Below, piece by piece: positions 3,474 to 64,000 of a stretch of DNA of 64,000 bases. How positions within the stretch are numbered: the stretch's first letter is position 1; every line of letters starts with the position of its first letter. The position numbers were made by a program, and so were the translations under genes. The stretch is from the NCBI GenBank assembly GCA_022827345.1, contig JAJDTB010000017.1:1-64000 (forward strand), written 5' to 3'. Origin of the DNA: Gemmatimonadota bacterium (GTDB lineage: Bacteria > Gemmatimonadota > Gemmatimonadetes > Longimicrobiales > Gaopeijiaceae). Below the pieces are notes generated by a model. The model worked only from the letters and a program-made list of their open reading frames with translations, was not told the DNA's origin and searched no databases.

Positions 3474-5315
3474 TCAGGGGCCGGAGCCACCCCCGTCATC
3501 GTCGCGAATGTAAAGTAGACTATACATATTGTCGTGTCTTCTTGACATTGTAAACGTTTCCACAACCGCGTCGGCGCCGGAGGGCACGAAGATCGTGGCC
3601 TGCAGGGGGGGATCGTCGCTGCCGGGATTGCCGACGGCGACGCGGAGCCGCGAACCGTGGGGCACGGCGCACATCATGAACAGGCCGCGTTCGTCGGTCG
3701 TGGTCTGCGCGGTGGAGAAGTAGCCATCGCGGCCGGCATCCCAGACGGGGCCCGGGCCGCCGCCGGGGCGAAGCGGCGCGGCGATGGGGGCGGGCGCGAA
3801 TCCGGTCGCGGCGGGCCATGCGACACGGACCTGGAACCCTGCGCGCGCCGATCCGTCGGCGTCGGTGATGCGTCCGAGCAGGGGGGCGGAGGCGTGCGCG
3901 CGGGAGGCCGTGCCGTCCGGGCCGGAAGCCGTGCCGTCCGCGGCGTAGGCCGGGCCGCACGAGGAGGCCAGCGCGTCGGCCATGGTCGGCACCCGCAGGC
4001 GCGCGTACGCCACCTCGCCGATGCTGCCGTCGACCACCGTCTCGGGGGCCGCGATGCCCCAGCGCTCCAGGAGGGGGACCATCAGCCGCAGCACGTGCCG
4101 TCCCGAAGGCAGCCGGGTGAACAGGAATGTGCCGTCCGGATCCGTCACCGCGAAGTCGCGGGTGCCCACTCTCTCCACCCCGACCGGCACGCCGGGGGCC
4201 GCGGTCCCGAGGGAGTCGGTCACCGCGCCGAAGATGCTGGCCGCGCCCGCGTCGAGCACCCTGCGGCCGAGCGCGTCGGTGACCGCCTCGGTGAAGCCGC
4301 CTTCCTCGCGGTAGCCGGTCCGCCGAATGCGCCCCCGGCGGCCCTCGTCGAGGACCGGCATGCGGATGCGCCACAGCCGCACGATCCAGGCGCCGTCCGG
4401 GAGCCGGGTGAAGTACACTTCGCCGCCCGGCTCACCGATCTCGTCCGATCCGAGGAGGTTGGCGTAGCGGTACACCATCCGGTCCAGTTCCGCCGTGGCC
4501 TGGTCCACCCAGAGCACGCCGTAGATCTCGGGCACGCTGCGGCCCTGCACCGGCTCGAAGGTGAGGCCGATCTGGCCGTTGTTCGCCGGGGTCACGCCGA
4601 AGCAGTGGGTGTCGAGGAAGACGTCGGAGAGCAGCGCCTCGGCATCCGGTGCGTAGTAGACCGTCGCGGTATCGCCCTCGGCCTGCACGAACCCCTCGTC
4701 CGCCAGCGTCCCGATCTCGACGGAGTAGAACGCGGCCTCGCGAGCCTCGGCGATGGGCTCGGTGTTCGAGACGACCTGTTCGGCATCGCGGTCCAGGGTG
4801 CGCTCGAAGCGCTGGAGCATGTAGGTGTACAGCGCGGCCTCGCGGGTCCATTCCTCGGCCGCGAGCGCCTTGCGCACCTCGTCCCACACGCGGGCGATCG
4901 CGCGCCCCTCCTCGGGCCTCACCTCGCAGCGCGGCCCGGCTTCGACGGCGAGTCCCCGCAGCGACACCGGCTCGACGGGCACGTCGATGACCATGGGCGG
5001 ATCGTCCGGGGCGGGCTCGAATCGGTCCGTGGTGAGGCTGGCGTACCCGATCCGCTCGACGGTGATGAAGTGCGGTCCGGACCCGGCCACGTCCAGCATG
5101 AACCGTCCGGCGGCGTTGGTGAGGAAGCGGTCGACCCGCTCGCCGCCGTCGTCGAAGAGGAGGACCATCGCGCCCGGGACCGGGAAGCGCGTGCCGCGCT
5201 CGATCACCACGCCCGTAACAACCCGCTGGGCGGTGTCGGGGAGTTGGGCGGCCGGCTCGGCCATGGCGGGGCCGGCGATGCCGATCAGAATCGCGATGGG
5301 AACGAGTGCGCGCAT
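3474..5315 (-). CDS. Secreted carboxypeptidase-regulatory-like domain protein
   Basis: 613 residues from ATG 5315, which gives a clean signal peptide (MRALVPIAILIGIAGPAMA); a longer start at 5351 adds 12 residues before it. After the signal, residues ~35-110 form a carboxypeptidase regulatory-like beta-sandwich (VVTGVVIERGTRFPVPGAMV). A central domain of unknown fold follows, and near 355-435 a second regulatory-like repeat (SIFGAVTDSLGTAAPGVPVG), with a third weaker one near 490-570. Such proteins are frequent in Gemmatimonadota and act in the envelope, with no enzyme activity assigned. The last ~20 residues (after TFTMSRR) are encoded by the 39-bp dyad element at 3509-3547 plus its flank, so the native C-terminus may have been altered. 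Confidence 0.7.
   Translation of the reverse strand: MRALVPIAILIGIAGPAMAEPAAQLPDTAQRVVTGVVIERGTRFPVPGAMVLLFDDGGERVDRFLTNAAGRFMLDVAGSGPHFITVERIGYASLTTDRFEPAPDDPPMVIDVPVEPVSLRGLAVEAGPRCEVRPEEGRAIARVWDEVRKALAAEEWTREAALYTYMLQRFERTLDRDAEQVVSNTEPIAEAREAAFYSVEIGTLADEGFVQAEGDTATVYYAPDAEALLSDVFLDTHCFGVTPANNGQIGLTFEPVQGRSVPEIYGVLWVDQATAELDRMVYRYANLLGSDEIGEPGGEVYFTRLPDGAWIVRLWRIRMPVLDEGRRGRIRRTGYREEGGFTEAVTDALGRRVLDAGAASIFGAVTDSLGTAAPGVPVGVERVGTRDFAVTDPDGTFLFTRLPSGRHVLRLMVPLLERWGIAAPETVVDGSIGEVAYARLRVPTMADALASSCGPAYAADGTASGPDGTASRAHASAPLLGRITDADGSARAGFQVRVAWPAATGFAPAPIAAPLRPGGGPGPVWDAGRDGYFSTAQTTTDERGLFMMCAVPHGSRLRVAVGNPGSDDPPLQATIFVPSGADAVVETFTMSRRHDNMYSLLYIRDDDGGGSGP
3509..3547 (+). repeat. 39-bp double-palindrome element, copy A
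   Basis: Two 18-bp imperfect palindromes, TGTAAAGTAGACTATACA (3509-3526) and TGTCGTGTCTTCTTGACA (3530-3547), separated by TAT. The same arrangement (18+3+18, 21-bp period) recurs at 20251-20289 and 62900-62938. AT-rich against a GC-rich background. This copy lies inside the last codons of the carboxypeptidase-regulatory gene, antisense to it, and the gene's frame stays open through it. Confidence 0.75.
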
Positions 5316-14662: not shown

Positions 14663-17038
14663 ATGGCCGGCTCCCTCTTCACTCGCGCCGGGGCCGATTT
14701 GTCTCCGCCGCGGGCGGCGATGCAAGCCGGGGCCGCGAACGCCGCCCTGCTTTCACTCCTCCTCATCTGCGCAACCGCAACTGCCGACGCCCAGGAGTCG
14801 CTCGATCCGGAGCGGGATGCGATGTACGCCCGCTACATGGCGCTCCCGACGCTGATCAAGGGGGGCACGATCTGTGCGGATGCGGGGGCGCTCGGCGGAG
14901 CGGCGTGCTCCCTCAACTGGATGGCGGACGGGCAGAGTTTCTGGTTCGCCGAGGGACAGCCCGACCAGACCGTGATCTACCGGGCGGATCCGGCGGCCGG
15001 GACCACCGAGCCGCTCTTCGACACCGGGCGCGTGCGGGAAGCGCTCACGGCGGCGCTGGGCCACGAGCCTCCGTACGGCGGGCTGCCGTTCGACAGCTTC
15101 ACGTTTGCGGGCGAGGGCGAGCGGGTCGTGCGCTTTTCGGTCGGGGAGCGGGGCTTCGAGTTGGACCTCGAGAGCTACACGGTGACCGCCCGGGCGGCGA
15201 GTGCGGTCGAGGCAGCCCAGCGGGCGCGTCCCCGGGTCGTGCGCGAGGGGTTTACGAGCGGTGCGCCGGCGGTGATGGAGGTGCCGTCGCCGGACGGACG
15301 CTGGCTGCTGACCGAGAAGGACGACGGCCTGTGGCTGCGCGCCACCTTCGACGGACGCGAACAGGCGGTGCTGGAGGACGGCGAGGAGGACTTCGCCTGG
15401 AGCGTCGAGGGGGCGATGTGGGCACCGGACGGCGCGCGCGTCGCCGCGATGAAGGTCGACAACCGCGCGATGGAGCGGGTGCCGATCGTGCACTGGCTGA
15501 AGCAGACCGAAGAGGTGGAGTGGGCGCCGTACGCGAAGGCCGGAAATCCGCTGCCGCGGCAGGAGCTTCACATCGTGGACGTGCCCGCGCGGCGGGCGGT
15601 GGCGGTCGATGTTGGCGACGCGGAGCAGATTCTGAGCCCGGTCGGGTGGCTCCCCGACGGCTCGGAGTACCTGTTCCTGCGGATGCTGAGGACCTACCGG
15701 ACGCTGCACCTGGTCGCGGCCGATCCGGCCACCGGCGAGACGCGCGTCGTTCTGGAGGAGACGCAGCCCACCTTCATCAAGGGGATCGGGACGACGCCTT
15801 CGTGGCGGGCGCTGGCGCGGCCGCTGTCCGATGGCGAGCGCTTCCTGTGGATCAGCGAGCGCGACGGCTGGGACCATATCTACCTGTACGGCATGGACGG
15901 CCGCCTGATCCGGCGACTGACGGAGGGCGAGTGGCCGGTCACGGGGATCGTGCACGTCGACGAGGCGGCGGGGACCGTCTACTTCAACGGCCACCGCGAG
16001 GAGCGCCCGTACGACACCCACCTGTACAGCGTGCCTCTCGATGGCGGCGAGGTCCGGCGGCTCACCGAGGGGGACGGCCAGCACAGCACCGCGATCTCGC
16101 CCAACGGCGCCTACCTGGTGGACACGCATTCGAGCACGAGCCGGCCGCCCCGCACGGAGATGCGCACCACGTCCGGCGAGCTGGTGTACGTGGTGAGCGA
16201 AGCCGACGTGAGCGCGCTCGACGAACTGGGGTGGACGCCGCCCGAGGAATTCGTCGTGAAGGCGGCCGATGGAGAGACCGACCTCTACGGGCTGATCTAC
16301 AAGCCGCACGATTTCGACTCGGCCCGGAAGTACCCGGTCATCGACTACATCTACAACGGTCCCTTCATCAGCTGGGTGCCGAAGACCTTCACCGACGGGC
16401 GCGGGCTCAGCCAGGCGGCCCTGGCCCAGCTGGGGTTCGTGGTGTTCATGGTGGACGGACGCGGCACCACCGAGCGCGGCAAGGCCTTCCAGGACGTGGC
16501 GTACCGGAACTTCGGACGCAATGAGATCCCGGATCACCGCGCTGCGATGGAGAACGCGGCCGCAACGCGCCCCTGGATGGACCTGGACCGGGTCGGCATC
16601 CACGGGGGCTCGTGGGGCGGATACATGACCGTGCGCGCGCTCGTCCTCGAACCCGACTTCTACGACGTCGGCGTCGCGACCAACGGCGTCTACGACATCC
16701 ACGACCAGAACGCCTGGGCGATCGAGCCCTACATGGACCGGCCGTGGGAGAACCCCGAGGGTTACGAGTACGGGTCGAGCCTGCGCCTGGCCGAGAATCT
16801 CAAGGGACAGCTGCTGCTGATCCACGGGACCAGCGACGTAAACGCCACCTTTTCAGCCACGATGAAGCTGGTCGAGGCGCTGATCCGGGCGGGAAGGCCG
16901 CACGACCTGATCGTGGTGCCCGAGCAGCCGCACTGGTTCACGGGGCAGAGCGCGGCGTTCACTGGGGCGGCGAGCCGGCGGTATTTCCAGGAGCACCTGC
17001 TGGGGCTGACGGGGAGGGAGAGGGAGGTGATCCCGTAG
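14663..17038 (+). CDS. S9 family prolyl oligopeptidase/DPP IV-like peptidase, secreted
   Basis: 791 residues from ATG 14663, one base after the amidohydrolase stop; ATG 14720 (MQAGAANAALLSLLLICATA) would give a shorter, cleaner signal peptide. The propeller half (~90-500) includes SPDGRWLLTEKDDGLWL and WAPDGARVAAMKVD. The hydrolase half has GIHGGSWGGYM (Ser650), acid GTSDVNATF and histidine EQPHWF. Acts in the periplasm or outside on proline-containing peptides. A fragment of a second copy of this gene lies at 18959-19117, so the gene was once duplicated here. Confidence 0.88.
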   Translation: MAGSLFTRAGADLSPPRAAMQAGAANAALLSLLLICATATADAQESLDPERDAMYARYMALPTLIKGGTICADAGALGGAACSLNWMADGQSFWFAEGQPDQTVIYRADPAAGTTEPLFDTGRVREALTAALGHEPPYGGLPFDSFTFAGEGERVVRFSVGERGFELDLESYTVTARAASAVEAAQRARPRVVREGFTSGAPAVMEVPSPDGRWLLTEKDDGLWLRATFDGREQAVLEDGEEDFAWSVEGAMWAPDGARVAAMKVDNRAMERVPIVHWLKQTEEVEWAPYAKAGNPLPRQELHIVDVPARRAVAVDVGDAEQILSPVGWLPDGSEYLFLRMLRTYRTLHLVAADPATGETRVVLEETQPTFIKGIGTTPSWRALARPLSDGERFLWISERDGWDHIYLYGMDGRLIRRLTEGEWPVTGIVHVDEAAGTVYFNGHREERPYDTHLYSVPLDGGEVRRLTEGDGQHSTAISPNGAYLVDTHSSTSRPPRTEMRTTSGELVYVVSEADVSALDELGWTPPEEFVVKAADGETDLYGLIYKPHDFDSARKYPVIDYIYNGPFISWVPKTFTDGRGLSQAALAQLGFVVFMVDGRGTTERGKAFQDVAYRNFGRNEIPDHRAAMENAAATRPWMDLDRVGIHGGSWGGYMTVRALVLEPDFYDVGVATNGVYDIHDQNAWAIEPYMDRPWENPEGYEYGSSLRLAENLKGQLLLIHGTSDVNATFSATMKLVEALIRAGRPHDLIVVPEQPHWFTGQSAAFTGAASRRYFQEHLLGLTGREREVIP

Positions 17039-18958: not shown

Positions 18959-19117
18959 CATGGACGCGGTACCACCGAGCGCGGCAAGGCGCACCAGGAC
19001 GTGGCCTACTGAAACTTCGGACGCAACGAGATACCCGATCACCGTGCGGCCATGGAGAACGCCGCCGCCACTCGGCCTTGGACGGAGGTGTTCTCCCGTC
19101 GCGGGGCGGCAGTGAGG
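18959..19117 (+). pseudogene. Decayed fragment of a duplicated S9 peptidase gene
   Basis: The stretch 18962 to ~19083 closely matches 16457-16579 inside the S9 peptidase gene. It translates GRGTTERGKAHQDVAY, stop, NFGRNEIPDHRAAMENAAAT, against GRGTTERGKAFQDVAYRNFG in the intact gene. The stop is TGA at 19010-19012. Right after PWT, sequence matching the 3' end and downstream flank of the same gene follows (GGAGGTG, then GGGGCGGCAGTGAGG at 19103-19117, compare 17046-17060), so the intervening ~450 bp were deleted. Non-functional relic of a tandem duplicate. Confidence 0.85.
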
Positions 19118-19118
19118 C

Positions 19119-20285
19119 TCAGCCGCCCGCGCGGCGGAGTATCGCGGCCGCCTCTGCGCTGCCGTTGAGCTCTGCGAGGTCCAGAGGCGTGTGGCCAGTG
19201 TAGTCACGGACCGACACATCGGCGCCGGCCTCGATCAGGAAGTGCAGGACGTCCGTGTTGTCCGCATCCGCCGCCCAATGCAAGGGTGTCTCACCTCTTG
19301 CGCTCCTCGCGTTCAGGTCGGCCCCGGCCCGAATGAGCGCCCTGGCCACTTCGAGGCCACCGCTGAAGGACGCCGCGCGGTGCAGGGGTGTTGCGGACGT
19401 TGCCAACTCCCGGGCGTCCACGTCCGCCCCGGCTTCGATGAGGGCGAGAGCCACTTCGGGGTTCTCGTTGGCGTACAACGCCCTCAGGAGAGGCGTATCT
19501 CCATGCCCGTTCTCGACGTTTATGTCGGATCCCGCGTTTACAAGAGCCAACGCTACTTCGGGGTTCTCGTTGTTTGCCGCCGCCAGGTGGAGCGGTGCCT
19601 CGCTTTGTTGGCCCGCGCGAGCGTCGAGATCGGCTCCGGCCCGCACAAGAGCCAGGACCATCTCGGGGTTCCTGTTGGCTCGCGCCGCGAGGGAAAGGGC
19701 TGTCGGTCCTCCGGGATTCGTGGCGTTCACGTCCACTCCGGCGCGGACGAAGGTCAAGGCCATCTCCGGATTCGCGTTGGATATTGCCGCGCCGAGCAGG
19801 TGTCGGGGTTCGGCGCGTGCACCGGCCCTGAGAAGGACGAGAGCCACTTCGGAATTCGCGTTGTACCGCGCAGCCATGTCCAGGGGTGCCCGGCGCATGG
19901 CGCTTGTGCCGAAATAGTCGTCCAGGGCATGGATGTCTGCCCCGGCCCGGATCAGGGTCAGGGCCACTTCCGGGTTCTCGTTCCACGCCGCCGCCAGGTG
20001 CAGGGGAGTCAGATCGGTAGAATCCCGGGCCGACACATCCGCCCCCGCTTGCAGGCAGGTCCTCGTATCGCCGGGAGTTGCCAGCTCGAAAAAGGCTTCA
20101 GTATTCCATGTTGCACAGTCGGGGGACTCGCAGGTCGTCAGCAGGAAAGCTGTCAGGAGCAGACTGGCGATTCGCAACGTGGAGGCGTTCCGGAGATGCG
20201 GGAGGAGATGTTCGCCATCGTGGCCAAGAGACACGAGGAAAATCGCGGCAAGTAAAGAGAACATGACAATATGTAATGTTGACAT
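19119..20285 (-). CDS. Ankyrin-repeat protein, probable lipoprotein
   Basis: 388 residues from ATG 20285. Residues ~80-385 are about nine ankyrin repeats (for example TPLHLAAAWNENPEVALTLI, RAGADIHALDD), many with an unusual NxNPEVALxLI helix. Ankyrin proteins mediate protein binding; in symbionts some act on host proteins, but that is inference. The first 12 residues (MSTLHIVMFSLL) are encoded by the 39-bp dyad element copy B. An alternative TTG at 20177 gives MRIASLLLTAFLLTTC, a good lipoprotein signal with lipobox LTTC, and may be the original start, the upstream 36 codons being element-derived. Follows soxG directly. Confidence 0.75.
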   Translation of the reverse strand: MSTLHIVMFSLLAAIFLVSLGHDGEHLLPHLRNASTLRIASLLLTAFLLTTCESPDCATWNTEAFFELATPGDTRTCLQAGADVSARDSTDLTPLHLAAAWNENPEVALTLIRAGADIHALDDYFGTSAMRRAPLDMAARYNANSEVALVLLRAGARAEPRHLLGAAISNANPEMALTFVRAGVDVNATNPGGPTALSLAARANRNPEMVLALVRAGADLDARAGQQSEAPLHLAAANNENPEVALALVNAGSDINVENGHGDTPLLRALYANENPEVALALIEAGADVDARELATSATPLHRAASFSGGLEVARALIRAGADLNARSARGETPLHWAADADNTDVLHFLIEAGADVSVRDYTGHTPLDLAELNGSAEAAAILRRAGG

Positions 20286-20289
20286 TACA
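20251..20289 (-). repeat. 39-bp double-palindrome element, copy B
   Basis: On the minus strand: TGTAATGTCAACATTACA (20289-20272), spacer TAT, TGTCATGTTCTCTTTACT (20268-20251). The first palindrome is perfect except for its 2-bp centre. It supplies both the TAA stop of soxG and the ATG start of the ankyrin gene (TAATG). Compare copies at 3509 and 62900. Confidence 0.75.
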
Positions 20290-53151: not shown

Positions 53152-55131
53152 ATGGAACATCATGGTCGCCGCGAGGACGCCGCAAGCCCGTCACTCGCCG
53201 CTGTATACGCCGAGCGCGCCGAGCGTTTCGACCGGGAGGCCGCGGTGAAGCTGCGGATCGCGCGTCTGTTCGGGCGACTCCGCCTCGCCCTCTTCACGGC
53301 TGCCATCGTCGGCGCCTGGTGGCTCTTCGCCGCGGGGCGAGGCACCGCGGCCTGGCTGCTCCTGGCGGCCGCTGCCGCTGCCTTCGCGATCCTCGTCGCG
53401 CGGCAACGCGGGGCCCGGCGCCGAATGCGGCGCGCCGAACTCATGGCCGAGTTCAACCGCGAAGGCGTCGCCCGCCTCGATCGCCACTGGCCGGGCCTGC
53501 GACCCGCACCCGCCCGCGCGGCTCCGGGGGACCACGACTACGCGGCGGACCTCGACCTCTTCGGCACGGCCTCGCTCCTGCACCTGATCGGCGTTTGCGG
53601 CACGGCTCCCGGCTGGCGGACGCTGCGTGCATGGCTGCTCGGCCGCGCCGATCCCGACACGGTGGCCTTGCGCCAGGCGGCGGTGTCCGAGATGGCCGGC
53701 GCCCTGGACTTCCGGGACCGGCTCGCAGCGGAGGCCCGGTTGCTGGACGTACCCACCGCATCCGCCCCGGGTCGTCCATCACCCCTTCGTGCCCTGGGCC
53801 TGCCACCCGCTCCCGGCAACCCGGATCCACCGGCGGCCCCGGACTCTCCAACACCGGCCGACGATCCCGCCGCCGCCTTCCTCCGCTGGGCGGAAGGCGA
53901 CCCGTGGCTGCTGAATCACCTCTGGCTCCGCATCGCCAGCTATCTCCTCCCGGCGGCGAACATCACCGCCATCGTCCTCTATTCCTACGGCGTCGTTCCC
54001 ATCCCGGTGCTGGGCTGGCCCGTCGTCATCTCGATCCTGGTCCTCGCGGCGAAATCGAGAGCCATCCACCAGGTCTTCACCGACGCCGACGACGGCGAAT
54101 CGGGCGTGCGGCAATACGGCCCCCTCCTCGCCCACCTCGCCGCCGCTCCGCTCGACTCACCGTACGCGGCCGCCCTCCGTCAGCGCGTCGGCACGGGTCC
54201 GCGCTCCGCCCCCGACGAGATCGCCACCCTGCGCCGCCTCCTCGACATGGCCGACGCCAGGCGGTCGCCGCTCCTGCACTACCCGCTCGCGGTGATCCTG
54301 CACTGGGATGTCCACGTCCTGGCGGGGCTCGAGCGCTGGAAGGCGCGGTCGGGGTCGCGTGTGCGGGACTGGCTGGACGCGGTCGGCGAGGCCGAGGCGC
54401 TGGCATCGCTCGCCGCGCTGCAAGCCGATCACCCCGACTGGACGATGCCCACCCTCGACCGCAACGCCCGCACCGTCCAGGCCAGGGCACTCGGCCACCC
54501 CCTCCTCGCGCCCGACATCTGCGTCCGCAACGACATCGAGATCGGCCCCGCCGGCTGCTTCCACCTCGTGACCGGCTCCAACATGTCCGGCAAGTCGACG
54601 CTGCTTCGCGCCGTCGGGCTGAACGCGGTGCTGGCGCAGGCGGGCGGGCCGGTGTGCGCGGCGTCACTGCGAATGCCGCCGCTCCGCGTGATGACCAGCA
54701 TCCTCGTCGAAGATTCCCTCGCGGACGGCATCTCGTACTTCATGGCGGGGCTGCAGCGGCTGAAGAGGATCGTGGACGCGGCCCAAACGAGCATCCCGGC
54801 GCCCGATCCCCAACCGCCCGCCACCCTCTACCTCCTCGACGAGATCCTGCAGGGCACCAACAGCGCCGAACGCCGGATCGCGGCCCGCACGGTCCTGCGC
54901 CAGCTCCTCGAGACCGGCGCGATCGGGGCCGTGACCACCCACGACCTCTCCCTCGCCGACGCCGACGACCTGACCGCGCGGGCCGTAGCCGTGCACTTGA
55001 CCGAGTCGGTGGACGATGGCGCCGACGCGCTCACCTTCGACTACCGGCTACGGGACGGCATCGCCACCTCGACCAACGCGCTGAAGCTGCTGGCGATGGT
55101 GGGGCTGGGGTGTACTGGCTCTCGGATGTAA
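53152..55131 (+). CDS. MutS-like ATPase with membrane helices
   Basis: 659 residues. Hydrophobic helices near 45-90 (LALFTAAIVGAWWLFA; AWLLLAAAAAAFAILVA) and 255-305 are followed by a MutS core and ABC-type ATPase: Walker A GSNMSGKSTLLR (~480-491), Walker B with ABC-like LYLLDEILQGTNSAER. These membrane-bound MutS relatives lack the mismatch-recognition domain and have no known role in repair. Start ATG 53152 is 2 nt from the oppositely directed serine hydrolase start. Confidence 0.83.
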   Translation: MEHHGRREDAASPSLAAVYAERAERFDREAAVKLRIARLFGRLRLALFTAAIVGAWWLFAAGRGTAAWLLLAAAAAAFAILVARQRGARRRMRRAELMAEFNREGVARLDRHWPGLRPAPARAAPGDHDYAADLDLFGTASLLHLIGVCGTAPGWRTLRAWLLGRADPDTVALRQAAVSEMAGALDFRDRLAAEARLLDVPTASAPGRPSPLRALGLPPAPGNPDPPAAPDSPTPADDPAAAFLRWAEGDPWLLNHLWLRIASYLLPAANITAIVLYSYGVVPIPVLGWPVVISILVLAAKSRAIHQVFTDADDGESGVRQYGPLLAHLAAAPLDSPYAAALRQRVGTGPRSAPDEIATLRRLLDMADARRSPLLHYPLAVILHWDVHVLAGLERWKARSGSRVRDWLDAVGEAEALASLAALQADHPDWTMPTLDRNARTVQARALGHPLLAPDICVRNDIEIGPAGCFHLVTGSNMSGKSTLLRAVGLNAVLAQAGGPVCAASLRMPPLRVMTSILVEDSLADGISYFMAGLQRLKRIVDAAQTSIPAPDPQPPATLYLLDEILQGTNSAERRIAARTVLRQLLETGAIGAVTTHDLSLADADDLTARAVAVHLTESVDDGADALTFDYRLRDGIATSTNALKLLAMVGLGCTGSRM

Positions 55132-55176
55132 AATGCGAAATCCACCCAATCTCGGCCAGCTTGGTTCGCCCCTCGT

Positions 55177-55845
55177 TCAGAGCGGCACGGTCACATGAAT
55201 AACCCGCCGCTCTTCTGGATGAATCGACTCTCCAAAGGAGGCCGTATCGGCGGGCAGCGCGTCTGCATTCCGGTGCATTTTCGTATCGTAGAAATTGCGT
55301 AGGACAAAGTCCATGAAGTGTGCGGGAGTCACGGGCGCGGATACCGGAATCCGACACTCAGGGAATTGACCCAAAGTGAGGTGGCATTTCGGATGTACGA
55401 CCTGTTGGTGTCTTTCTTCGCTCTCATCGTAGTCAAACCGGAAAGGAAACGACACGGTGGTTCTCCCCACAACATCCGCAAGAAGTTCGTCGTCAAGGTA
55501 GACATCCGGAGTCTTTTGGAATTCGTCGAGACGTGCACTCGGGAAATACGCCAGCCGGTGTCTCGTCACCTCTCGGCCCACGAATGTATAGGTCATCTGC
55601 ACAAGTGCACCGTCTGCCATCTTGGCATTGAAAGCTCGCGCCTCCATGAGCTGGTCATAGGTTGTCACGTATGCCCGTTTCCGAAGCGCGACCGACACCG
55701 CTTCGGCTCCTTCAAACGCAATCTCTTCGGCTCCGCCACCCAACGGCCTCCGAAAGGCGAAGTTCTGATCGTCGGCTAGCCCGCATTCTACCAGGTGCCG
55801 GAGGATCTGATTGATGCCTGCCATGGCCTCGTTAGGAGTCGTCAC
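55177..55845 (-). CDS. DUF2290-domain protein
   Basis: 222 residues from GTG 55845 (ATG 55824 also possible). Matches the DUF2290 pattern: FPSARLDEFQKTPDVYLDDE, FPFRFDYDESEERHQQVVHP and HLTLGQFPECRIPVSAPVTP, ending HFMDFVLRNFYDTK. The function of this family is unknown. Its start overlaps the end of the helicase gene by 14 nt, so they act as a pair; such pairing is suggestive of a defence or DNA-processing system. Confidence 0.75.
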   Translation of the reverse strand: MTTPNEAMAGINQILRHLVECGLADDQNFAFRRPLGGGAEEIAFEGAEAVSVALRKRAYVTTYDQLMEARAFNAKMADGALVQMTYTFVGREVTRHRLAYFPSARLDEFQKTPDVYLDDELLADVVGRTTVSFPFRFDYDESEERHQQVVHPKCHLTLGQFPECRIPVSAPVTPAHFMDFVLRNFYDTKMHRNADALPADTASFGESIHPEERRVIHVTVPL

Positions 55846-57991
55846 TGCCCCTCTTGCCCTCCCTAACCATCAATAGAATACGGAGCTTCTCTGCGACATC
55901 TTCGCCGATGTCTTCCGCATAGAGATTACCCGCCTCCAAATCTGCGATCAGCTTGGACACATTAGTCTTGTGTCCACTTACGAGTCTTCCCTCCGCTGCG
56001 GTTAAGTCGCGATGGACAATGCGCATCTTGGCCAGTTCCTGGTCGGTTGGGTATTCGAAGCGGAGGTGGTAATCGGACTGAGCCAGCAGCCGATACTCCT
56101 CACTTAGCGCCGCCATCCCGTCGCCGACTCCACACACCCTCACCCACGCCTTACTCCGAGTTATTGCCGTAAACAGGCGGTTCCGGATAGTTGCCAGGTT
56201 GATGGGCGACGACCAACAGTCCTGAGCATTCACGACATAGACCATCGGAACCTCGTTGCCCTTAGCCCGGTGAATGCCGGTGAAGGTGACCGAACCGCGT
56301 TGGAAAAACACGTCTCGATGTGTGTGTACGCCCGCGAGGTGCGCCTGTATACCGGCATCGAGCAGTCGGCGACGAATCGGACCCAACTTGTTACGGGTCG
56401 AAATCGGATTCATATGAACGACCATGATGTCCTCTGGGGACAATTGGTCCTGTTCAATGTTCTCCTTAATCTTCTGGACGAGCCATTGGCTTTGGTGCTT
56501 TTCGTTGTCGAAACGTTCAAACCGGACCAGATCATGGACTGGGGAATGCTCTTCCAGGAAAGGTGGGCTCGTCTCGCTCGTTCTCCGGAGAGAGACCTGC
56601 GATCCGCCAACAAGGCTTCCTGAAGTTACTCGATACCCTACTTCATCCCATAGCTTGGGATCGTCGAACATCTGTACCAGCCCGCTGCTCCGACCTGCTT
56701 CGGGACTGCGATATACGCCAAATCCCAGTGCGTGCGCCGTCGTCAAGACCGGACGGGAGTTCCTGTAGCATTTCTCGAGTATTATGTCCCGCCTACTAGC
56801 CTCGCCATCCCACCGAGCGCCCTCACCAAAGATCGTGATTGGTGATGGCAACGGCTCGCTCGAGAGGTTCTGCAATTCATCGTACGCATAAACGATACGC
56901 TTGTTCTCCTTCAGCAGCGAATAGCAGACACGCAAGAATGCCGGCGGCAGATCCTGTGCCTCGTCGACAAGGATGGCATCGTAAGGCTGATCGGAGTGCC
57001 GATTATGTTGCAGAGCATGGTCACATGCACCCTCAAATTCGCGGCCGCGGCCAAACCTGCTCCTGGCGGCAAGGAAATCGAAGTAGCGCGATCCATTTGT
57101 TTCGCAGAACTCGTGATAGATTCCGTCCTGTTCTCCTCCACCGGGCGCTCCCCAAGCATTCAGCACACGCAGGGTATCCCAATCAGGACTCTCATTCGTC
57201 TGCGCTACGCAAAACTCTCCTATCAGTCTTCGAAAGTACTCCTTGAGAGAGCGTGTCTGGAAAGTCACGGCCATTCGCCAGTCCGGGTGCTGCGCATGGA
57301 GGTAAGCAGCTTTCAGGGCAAGCACGATGGTCTTGCCTGAGCCCGCCAGTCCTCGAATGCGTTGGATGCCATCCACAGTCTCGATGACAGCCCGGCTCTG
57401 CATCGTATCTAGTGTTGCGACCGAATCTTCTAGGGCTCGGAGCTTCGCACCACGTGTATTGTCGCCCGCTTCTGGGCGCCTAACGCGCGTCTTTCGAATC
57501 GTGGTAATGTGCTCGAGCGCCGAGAGCGCTCTCTGAAATGCTCTTTCGTCTCTGTCAGGCCATTCAAAAGCACGGATAGTCGCTACAAGGCTCTCCCTGT
57601 TTGCAACGGCATAGTCATCATCCGGTAGCGAGCCTAGCATCGCAGGCGTTGCTGATGGAGCGAATGACACCGTGTGTATCTTTACCAGGAGTTGCCTTCT
57701 GTGGGTGAGGTCGCTATGGGTCCTCAGTTTGGCGTCTACTAGATTGGCTGCGTCGTCTTGACGTTTCTCGAACCCTTCGAGCTCGTTCCCTTCGATCAGA
57801 TCGAAGACTATGAGACCCCGCTCAGCGGAAACCAACAGGGCGTCGATGCGGTGGGGGCCGTGCGTCGTACCGACGATTGGGTATCCAATGAACAACTTTC
57901 CTGACCAGCCGCTCCACCCAGCAGCCAGCTCTGCCAGGCTCCGACTCGCCACGGGCTTATCGTTAGTACCATGGATTACTGAAATGCTCAT
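55832..57991 (-). CDS. SF1/UvrD-like helicase with degenerate N-terminal nuclease-like domain
   Basis: 719 residues. An N-terminal NERD-like fold (GPHRIDALLVSAERGLIVFD, ~46-65) lacks the ExK pair, so it is probably inactive. Walker A GLAGSGKTIVLAL (214-226), Walker B ILVDEAQDLPPAF (340-352), and C-terminal motifs FTGIHRAKGNEVPMVYVVNA and RNRLFTAITRSKAWVRVCG typical of UvrD_C_2 helicases. Likely unwinds or translocates on DNA or RNA. Paired with the overlapping DUF2290 gene. Lower GC than neighbours, consistent with transfer. Confidence 0.82.
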   Translation of the reverse strand: MSISVIHGTNDKPVASRSLAELAAGWSGWSGKLFIGYPIVGTTHGPHRIDALLVSAERGLIVFDLIEGNELEGFEKRQDDAANLVDAKLRTHSDLTHRRQLLVKIHTVSFAPSATPAMLGSLPDDDYAVANRESLVATIRAFEWPDRDERAFQRALSALEHITTIRKTRVRRPEAGDNTRGAKLRALEDSVATLDTMQSRAVIETVDGIQRIRGLAGSGKTIVLALKAAYLHAQHPDWRMAVTFQTRSLKEYFRRLIGEFCVAQTNESPDWDTLRVLNAWGAPGGGEQDGIYHEFCETNGSRYFDFLAARSRFGRGREFEGACDHALQHNRHSDQPYDAILVDEAQDLPPAFLRVCYSLLKENKRIVYAYDELQNLSSEPLPSPITIFGEGARWDGEASRRDIILEKCYRNSRPVLTTAHALGFGVYRSPEAGRSSGLVQMFDDPKLWDEVGYRVTSGSLVGGSQVSLRRTSETSPPFLEEHSPVHDLVRFERFDNEKHQSQWLVQKIKENIEQDQLSPEDIMVVHMNPISTRNKLGPIRRRLLDAGIQAHLAGVHTHRDVFFQRGSVTFTGIHRAKGNEVPMVYVVNAQDCWSSPINLATIRNRLFTAITRSKAWVRVCGVGDGMAALSEEYRLLAQSDYHLRFEYPTDQELAKMRIVHRDLTAAEGRLVSGHKTNVSKLIADLEAGNLYAEDIGEDVAEKLRILLMVREGKRGSDDS

Positions 57992-58285
57992 TCCTCTTCT
58001 CCAGACTTGATCTCCGAGAGCCAGACCCCAGGATCATGGTGCGTTGCCGGTCGGTCAAGAGCACACCGCGTCACGGCGGCTAATCGCTCGGTCCTTAGCG
58101 TAAGACTGACGTGCCGTGTCAGCGAACCGTCATTGCCCAGCCTTCCCGCCCGCCCGTGAGCATTTCTGTACCGTGCTCGGGACCGCCATCCGCAGCCGCT
58201 CCGACGCGGTCCCACCTCGACCAATGGACTCGGCCCCAAATGTGGGGCACACCTCGACCTCGTAGTTGTTTCTTCTTTCTCATCC
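57992..58285. other. Spacer between two accessory ATPase genes
   Basis: About 294 bases with no supported gene between the helicase start and the ATPase stop; it holds the helicase promoter. No repeats or att-like sequence recognised. Confidence 0.4.
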
Positions 58286-62440: not shown

Positions 62441-63430
62441 ATGGTGGCGGACTTGAATCCACCCCTCACCCTCGTCATCCTCGCCGCCGGCCGCGCCACC
62501 CGTTTCGGCCGCCTCAAGCAGCTCGTCCCGATCGGCCCCGGCGGCGAGGCGCTGCTCGACTACGCCCTCTACGACGGCGCACTCGCGGGTTTTTCGCGCT
62601 TCGTGCTCGTGATTCAGGAGGCCCTCCGCGAAGACTTCGATGCACACCTGGCGCCCGCCCGCGCCGCCGGCCTCGACATCCGCTACGCCTGCCAGCGCCT
62701 GGCGCACCCCGGGCTCGTGGACACTCCGCCCCCGGGCCGCACCCGCCCCTGGGGCACCGGCCACGCCGTGCTCACTGCGGGCGAACACATCGACGGCCCC
62801 TTCGCCGTCTGCAACGCCGACGACTTCTACGGACGGGGCGCCTACGCCGCGCTGGCCGAGGCGATGCGCGGCGCGAGCGGGCACGCGCGCAACTCGCATT
62901 GTAAAGTAGACATTACATACTGTAATGCAGACATGACATGCACCATCGCCTACCCCCTCGAAGTCACCCTCTCCGGCAGCGGCGGCGTCTCCCGGGGCAT
63001 CTGCGAAGTCGGCGAGGCGGGCGCCCTCCAGCGCCTGACCGAGGGCCTGGAACTCCGCCGCGACGGCGACCGCGTGCGCGGCCGCGACGTCGCCGGAAGG
63101 CCGGTTGACGTCGCCTTGCAAACTCCTGTCTGCATGAACCTCTGGGGCTTCCCGCCGCAGATCCTCCCCGCCATGCGCGACCTCTTTACCGCATACCTCG
63201 CCGACGGACCCGGCTCAGACCGCGAATTCTTCCTCTCCGAAGCGATCAGCGACCTCATCGCGGCCGGACGCGCCCGCTGCACCGTGCTGCCCACCCGCGA
63301 GCGCTGGCTCGGCGTCACGTTCCCGGAAGACCACCCCGCAGTGGCCGGATCCCTCCGTGGACTGGTAGACTCCGGGGTCTATCCCATGCGCCTTTGGGAC
63401 ACTCCGCCGACCCCTTCCTCCCGCGACTGA
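62441..63430 (+). CDS. Nucleotidyltransferase carrying an in-frame dyad element
   Basis: 329 residues. Nucleotidyltransferase fold: LTLVILAAGRATRFGRLKQL (~8-27) is the nucleotide-binding signature, NADDFYG (~127) the metal-binding acidic loop. Related sugar- or amino-alcohol-phosphate transferases use CTP or UTP. Residues ~153-167 (HCKVDITYCNADMTC) come from the 39-bp element copy C and interrupt the expected run from the helix after NADDFYG into YPLEVTLSGSGGVSRGICEV. The frame is kept and the rest is intact. Whether the enzyme still works is unknown. Followed 6 nt later by a symporter gene. Confidence 0.83.
   Translation: MVADLNPPLTLVILAAGRATRFGRLKQLVPIGPGGEALLDYALYDGALAGFSRFVLVIQEALREDFDAHLAPARAAGLDIRYACQRLAHPGLVDTPPPGRTRPWGTGHAVLTAGEHIDGPFAVCNADDFYGRGAYAALAEAMRGASGHARNSHCKVDITYCNADMTCTIAYPLEVTLSGSGGVSRGICEVGEAGALQRLTEGLELRRDGDRVRGRDVAGRPVDVALQTPVCMNLWGFPPQILPAMRDLFTAYLADGPGSDREFFLSEAISDLIAAGRARCTVLPTRERWLGVTFPEDHPAVAGSLRGLVDSGVYPMRLWDTPPTPSSRD
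62900..62938 (+). repeat. 39-bp double-palindrome element, copy C, inside a gene
   Basis: TGTAAAGTAGACATTACA (62900-62917), spacer TAC, TGTAATGCAGACATGACA (62921-62938). The centre CATTACA-TAC-TGTAATG is itself a perfect dyad. 39 nt is a multiple of three, and the frame used has no stop, so it is translated as part of the nucleotidyltransferase. Confidence 0.8.
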
Positions 63431-63436
63431 AGCCGA

Positions 63437-64000
63437 ATGCAACTCACCACACTCGACTGGATCGTCATCGCGCTGTACGGCCTCACGGCCCTCGCCATCG
63501 GCCTCCGCTTCGCGCGGCGCGCGGGTTCGGGGGCGGACGAGTTCTTCCTGTCGGGGCGGAAGCTGCCGTGGTGGCTGCTCGGCACGTCGATGGTCGCGAC
63601 CACCTTCTCCACCGACACGCCGAACCTGATTGCCGACTTCGTGCGCACCGGCGGGGTCGCGCAGAACTGGTCTTGGTGGGCGTTCCTGATCACCGGAATG
63701 TGCACGGTCTTCTTCTACGCCAGGCTGTGGCGCAGGTCGGGCGCGCTCACCGACATCGAGTTCTACGAGCTGCGCTATTCGGGGCGGCCGGCGGCCTTCC
63801 TGCGGGGGTTCCGCGCGCTCTACCTCGGCGTCTTCTACAACGTGATGATCATCGCCACGGTGACCCTCGCGGCGACCAAGATCGGCGGCGTGCTCCTCGG
63901 CCTCGACCCGCTCACCACCGTGCTGATCGCGGGGTCTGTGACGGTGATCTACTCGGCCACGTCCGGGCTCTGGGGCGTTGTCGTGACCGACCTCATCCTA
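63437..64000 (+). CDS. Sodium:solute symporter family transporter, C-terminus beyond the window
   Basis: The frame is open from ATG 63437 to the window end (188 residues seen). N-terminal helix DWIVIALYGLTALAIGLRFA, then FFLSGRKLPWWLLGTSMVAT, the SSS-family signature (GRKxPWW), followed by TFSTDTPNLIADFVRTGGVA and further helices. A sodium-driven importer; substrate unknown. It starts 6 nt after the nucleotidyltransferase stop, so the two form an operon. Confidence 0.9.
   Translation, partial: MQLTTLDWIVIALYGLTALAIGLRFARRAGSGADEFFLSGRKLPWWLLGTSMVATTFSTDTPNLIADFVRTGGVAQNWSWWAFLITGMCTVFFYARLWRRSGALTDIEFYELRYSGRPAAFLRGFRALYLGVFYNVMIIATVTLAATKIGGVLLGLDPLTTVLIAGSVTVIYSATSGLWGVVVTDLIL

Follow-up and report, generated by a model that had tools for sequence, protein, structure and literature searches.

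A genus-restricted, high-copy repeat of paired dyads in Gemmatimonadota resembles a protein-binding site and is translated in a nucleotidyltransferase loop

Several described classes of short bacterial DNA elements resemble, in one respect or another, the repeat analyzed here. REP sequences and BIMEs are 20 to 40 bp long and high in copy number, are biased toward the 3′ ends of genes and toward convergent intervals, and in some cases lie within genes (PMC3733652). RPEs are dispersed palindromic stem-loops of 105 to 146 bp that also occur in frame in conserved protein genes, where they are apparently tolerated (PMC2229807). Among protein-binding sites, the canonical ArgR operator pairs two 18-bp semi-palindromes across a 3-bp gap (PMC6640053), and the TyrR box, TGTAAA-N6-TTTACA, carries an invariant G and an invariant C that lie 14 bp apart (PMC4374768). 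A search of the open literature on Gemmatimonadota extragenic palindromic repeats and on Palauibacter yielded no title or abstract describing a repeat of the kind reported below.

The window, as we call the whole 64,000-nucleotide stretch of DNA that was analyzed, belongs to a genome of 4.79 Mb in 75 contigs from a Palauibacter-like, sponge-associated member of the Gemmatimonadota (G000). A preliminary description had proposed that a copy of a dispersed element is inserted in frame in a nucleotidyltransferase at positions 62895 to 62945, and the open reading frame together with repeat matches throughout the genome bears this out. The location is also right, except that the interval is about five bases too wide on each side. 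The repeat proper, hereafter called element A, is the 39-bp AT-rich sequence TGTAAAGTAGACATTACA TAC TGTAATGCAGACATGACA at 62900 to 62938 of the plus strand. The features of the window that concern us are as follows.

3509 to 3547, minus strand: third window copy of element A, more diverged, within the final codons of an ORF with a carboxypeptidase-regulatory domain; also present in G009, the nearest relative
20251 to 20289, plus strand: element A, second copy in the window, situated where a gene ends; G009 has a copy at the orthologous place
62441 to 63430, plus strand: host gene, sugar-1-phosphate nucleotidyltransferase-like (PF12804/PF00483), 329 amino acids, homolog of PDB 3PNN
62891 to 62935, plus strand: 45-nt segment missing from G009 by pairwise alignment, its ends ambiguous by a few bases
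62898 to 62940, plus strand: element A plus edges of weak conservation, encoding residues 153 to 167; the profile of 58 genomic copies is conserved from about −1 to 41
62900 to 62917, plus strand: dyad unit 1, TGTAAAGTAGACATTACA, two facing half-sites
62918 to 62920, plus strand: 3-bp spacer TAC, which sets the unit spacing at 21 bp, or two helical turns
62921 to 62938, plus strand: dyad unit 2, TGTAATGCAGACATGACA
63437 to 64000, plus strand, continuing past the window: downstream sodium:solute symporter gene

Other features of the window were noted in passing. A 60-nt repeat occurs eight times at 19207 to 19983, for the most part at intervals of 99 to 105 nt, and is suggestive of ankyrin-type protein repeats. 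A 125-nt direct repeat (85% identical) occupies 16457 to 16581 and 18962 to 19086. The region from 55001 to 58000 has a GC content of about 56%, compared with about 68% elsewhere, and is possibly an acquired segment. The syntenic match to G009 is broken between 55110 and 58295.

Element A is composed of two 18-bp dyads with 3 bp between them, as described by the pattern TGTAAWGTnnACWTTACA-nnn-TGTAATGTnnACATTACA. Its four alternating half-sites, TGTMAWGT, lie one helical turn apart. The consensus derived from 58 oriented copies of G000 is AATGTAAAGTAAACATTACATAATGTAATGTnnACATTACATT, wherein G2, C17, G23, and C38 are invariant (58/58) and the neighboring specified positions vary; in these copies, the fourth base of the half-site is mainly A or C and the sixth mainly A or T. 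The same profile gives a conserved length of 39 to 43 bp. A larger repeat surrounding element A was considered and rejected, as conservation stops at about 43 bp in all but a minority of copies, those nested in a MITE. The two units are spaced by 21 bp in 58 of 60 paired G000 copies and by 20 bp in the other two. Species have their own variants of the consensus, with a TGTATAC arm frequent in G021 and a TGTCATG arm in G020, at a constant spacing of 21 bp.

The unit pattern has no match in 100 shuffles of the window. In G000 it is matched 176/167 times, compared with 5/5 for a reversed-pattern control. Paired elements number 120 in G000 (0 in the reversed control), 106 in G009, 249 in G020, 171 in the 2.8 Mb of G010, and 85 on the one contig of G021, where the positions, among the matches listed, appear spread along its length and so suggest no macrodomain or ori/ter bias; G008 has none. 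Among 118 relatives searched, the unit is high in copy number only within the genus and is near control level outside it. Unit matches number about 50 to 230 per strand in 17 of 23 genus members and 1 to 25 in the remaining six. In 1.14 Mb of G000, many stretches of which were picked around known copies, so that density is biased whereas placement within a stretch is still informative, we located 68 elements (2 in the reversed sequence), comprising 58 with units at 21 bp, 2 at 20 bp, and 8 single units.

Although 90% of this sampled DNA is coding according to a home-made gene caller, 62 of the 68 copies are noncoding or overlap the end of a gene. The first TGTAA of element A provides the stop codon of the adjoining gene in several copies, and the copy at L177:14954 gives a stop codon to both convergent genes. 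When the expectation is taken as uniform over noncoding positions, convergent intervals are enriched (19 of 53, versus 16.5% expected; p = 0.0006) and divergent intervals are depleted (6 of 53, versus 30% expected; p = 0.0016). Two individual copies are of separate interest. At L182:5199–5237 (G000 C26), element A is in frame in a loop of an AMP-binding ligase beside a (GPD)n run, where its other open frame is used and reads VKSTLHIDNQTL. At L171:9515–9553 (G000 C9), it stands immediately after the ATG in an ORF for a trypsin/PDZ (DegP-like) lipoprotein, and its translation would form the beginning of the signal peptide.

Each unit is itself a dyad, so an 18-bp hairpin between the units could also form. 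In the 58 copies, Watson–Crick pairing of the arms is near the expectation for independent columns at every pair, and arm complementarity is not above that of shuffled arms in G000 (734 versus 742.7), G020 (383 versus 397.0), or G021 (609 versus 625.6). The inner half-sites are rarely both C/G variants (0 versus 3.6, 3 versus 7.9, and 2 versus 5.2 expected in three species), as would be expected if a cooperative site tolerates one weak half-site. In 10 orthologous copies of G000 and G009, a small sample in which core positions were defined on consensus-search copies, 9 of 180 half-site core positions have changed, compared with 28 of 171 at the element's other positions (p = 0.0008); in the flanks of the same copies, 140 of 1131 positions have changed. 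The slower change of the cores supports continuing constraint on resident copies, and such conservation as a DNA site is unexpected for a merely mobile sequence. Judged from these sequence comparisons, element A appears more like a protein-binding site than a hairpin or a decaying transposon.

We consider it somewhat better than an even bet that element A serves as a DNA recognition site, present in many copies and confined to the genus, and that the copy in the enzyme is tolerated in a variable loop. The binder would most likely be a multimeric protein that occupies the four half-sites, presented as two dyads at 21-bp spacing, in a cooperative manner. Because the copies lie mostly between genes, prefer convergent intervals, and avoid divergent promoters, a function in chromosome organization, insulation, or transcript ends would be more likely than promoter regulation. 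With no stop in two of the element's frames, a disordered loop of variable length would carry its translation harmlessly, in which case the added residues would be tolerated rather than useful. Some observations count against a binding site. A range of 0 to 249 copies within the genus would be odd for an essential site, and an apparent recent gain at L177:9401 together with MITE-borne copies (see below) points to mobile DNA for part of the spread. A more far-reaching proposal, which we advance only tentatively, is that element A is the target of an undescribed protein which, in this one symbiont genus, organizes or insulates DNA genome-wide, and that selection keeps the site even within genes, where the requirements of the DNA and not those of the enzyme would shape the protein loop.

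A different explanation, which strikes us as unlikely but which accounts for some of the same facts, is that element A is a nonautonomous mobile palindrome of the REP or RPE kind. Selection would then only purge it from promoters and genes, and the enzyme copy would be a tolerated in-frame insertion as in RPEs. Its high copy number and REP-like bias toward 3′ ends and convergent intervals (PMC3733652) fit such an origin, as do RPE-like in-frame intragenic copies (PMC2229807), with that of the AMP-ligase loop (L182:5199) as a second case, and the probable gain at L177:9401. However, arm complementarity is no better than composition in the three species, and in resident copies the cores change more slowly than the flanks. 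Moreover, a Y1/RAYT transposase (PF01797), found in five control genomes, has no match in G000, and the REP tag GTAG/CGTC is missing from the 58-copy consensus.

Mobility can also be judged at orthologous places, for which about 1.2 Mb of G009 was set against the 1.14 Mb of G000. About 10 copies are common to the two genomes, and four are found in G000 only: L165:8335, L176:1244, L177:9401, and the enzyme copy. The right flank and element of L165:8335 are present in G013 and G015, which indicates that G009 lost this copy. The L176:1244 copy sits within a 227-bp MITE with the TIR AGTGTCCYGTCCCGGAA and flanking TA. Neither G009 nor eight further species have the L177:9401 copy, which lies between convergent genes and was thus probably gained recently; it belongs to a stretch of about 80 bp whose flanks are unique in the genome. 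The segments that G009 lacks measure 45, ~80, ~100, and 227 nt and have no fixed length or constant target duplication, which speaks against a mobile palindrome, and none of the compared sites showed element A by itself as the unit of transposition. Copies come and go, in part by hitch-hiking on mobile DNA.

The MITE itself occurs in forms of 227 to 248 bp (L176:1165–1391 and L173:10484–10731), with the same TIR and flanking TA and with element A at offset 79. TIR-like matches are present in the window at 967, 3210, and 3419, and a right-hand end adjoins the copy at 3509. TIRs or a constant target duplication were not found around element A itself, the only such copies being those nested in the 227- to 248-bp MITE.

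That the two units are the arms of an RNA or single-strand DNA hairpin, serving as a bidirectional terminator or an mRNA stabilizer, is improbable. Arms of 18 bp, a loop of 3 nt, and a location at gene 3′ ends and in convergent intervals would suit this role, but compensatory changes are absent, complementarity does not exceed that of shuffled arms in G000, G020, and G021, and the AT-rich stem is without a T-run. We give slightly less credence still to a widely spread arginine-repressor operator of the genus. The geometry is identical (18-3-18, occasionally with a 2-bp spacer; PMC6640053), but ArgR is found in 22 of 23 genus species whatever their copy number, including G008 with 0 sites; in G010, with 171 sites, no ArgR was found. 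ArgR was rejected as the binder, as its presence does not track site number.

The gene that carries the enzyme copy encodes a MobA/NTP-transferase-like protein with a solved homolog (3PNN, E 7e-63), and its ORF is open in all relatives. The symporter gene and, after it, a GHMP/galactokinase-type kinase gene (contig 65206 to 66612) make a role in sugar activation likely. In G106, G112, and G115 (L045 to L047), the nucleotidyltransferase ORF runs on into GHMP-kinase-like sequence as one long ORF.

Element A reads through without a stop in two frames and is translated in the enzyme as 13 amino acids, CKVDITYCNADMT; residues 153 to 167 are HCKVDITYCNADMTC, as the preliminary description had written them. 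The contrast in composition with the host protein that it had pointed out is real. Only 4 of the 13 element codons end in G or C, versus 87% for the gene's other codons and 86.7% across sampled genes, where ATT accounts for 10% of Ile codons and ACA for 5% of Thr codons. Modeling had been suggested as a way to see whether the insert loops out at the surface. In an AlphaFold2 model of the host protein (mean pLDDT 88.5, pTM 0.89), the insert lies in an unstructured loop (residues 148–164) between a helix (132–147) and a strand (165–172), with pLDDT below 50 at 153 to 162, and it is predicted to be a disordered surface loop.

This loop is hypervariable among relatives, ranging from short to very long. 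Its length is not conserved, so there is no fixed link between helix and strand for the insert to break, as had been supposed. The possibility that homologs have an equally long, unrelated insert here had been named as grounds for doubt and is partly realized, in that G014, G018, G008, G021, and L081 have unrelated GC-rich loops of equal or greater length. Nevertheless, an ordinary expansion of a variable AT-rich loop with no element involved, which the short to very long and unrelated loops of relatives might suggest, is scarcely credible, being refuted by about 120 genomic recurrences against 0 reversed-control matches and by the presence of the element in the same loop of seven other species.

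A second loop of the nucleotidyltransferase (loop 2, after LWGFP) contains in frame a different AT-rich palindrome, element B (GACAGATTC-N6-GAATCTGTC), in G017, G003, G021, G010, G006, G019, G016, G004, G014, and G018 (L033, L034, L037, L040 to L044, L048, and L051). These carriers are without element A in loop 1. Element B is largely genus-restricted and reaches at most 32 copies in a genome, frequently paired at a distance of 84 bp.

Loop 1 carries element A in G000, G013, G015, G002, G011, G007, G020, and L080, in the same frame and open in 8/8. The right-hand junction is identical in the first six of these, and the element lies elsewhere in the loop in G020 and L080; the number of acquisitions may be anywhere from one to three or four. 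All eight species retain ATT ACA at the center. Synonymous identity between G000 and G011, G007, G020, and L080 is 18/20 in element codons, versus 55 to 63% elsewhere in the gene. The AT-ending codons of the element are thus kept over deep divergence, which fits a recognition site but could also reflect independent insertions of one consensus.

The G009 protein is 94% identical to that of G000, and its gene is 45 nt shorter exactly at element A. G009 is sister to G000 in the protein tree, and the pair stands next to G013, G015, and G002. This position among carriers and the ACAT that G009 retains at the join favor a loss, and G009 probably lost the enzyme copy; by counting alone, two separate gains are possible instead. 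The enzyme copy is inherited among relatives and was probably lost at least once. It had been put forward as the clearest evidence that the element moves, a claim that is not supported, given that the element fills the same loop in seven other species, five of them with the same right junction, and given the probable loss in G009. The L177:9401 copy is better evidence of a gain.

If element A is indeed a recognition site, its ~100 sites per genome would mark the target of an abundant, undescribed DNA-binding protein in uncultured sponge symbionts, and the spread from 0 to 249 sites among related species would amount to a natural experiment on repeat function. The enzyme copy would then illustrate how the loop of a protein can be shaped by a site in the DNA, and that a translated repeat need not be mobile.

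Element A qualifies as none of the four known systems, although it shares something with each. Like REPs and BIMEs, it is extragenic and biased toward gene 3′ ends and convergent intervals, with a similar size and copy number, but it is AT-rich and has neither the tag nor RAYT, and its arms are not kept complementary as those of a REP hairpin are. Like RPEs, it occurs in frame in protein genes, here the nucleotidyltransferase and the AMP-ligase; unlike them, it is 39 bp long, mostly extragenic, without covarying arms, and constrained as a DNA site. It has the two 18-bp dyads of an ArgR operator at a spacing of 3 bp, occasionally 2, yet the half-site sequence differs and there are more than 100 sites with no promoter bias. 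Its unit matches the TyrR box, G2/C17 and G23/C38 being invariant in 58/58 copies, a likeness of site sequence only, whereas element A has two boxes at a fixed 21 bp, lies at gene 3′ ends, avoids divergent promoter regions, and belongs to a different phylum. As a recognition site, element A would be placed like a REP or BIME and maintained like an operator.
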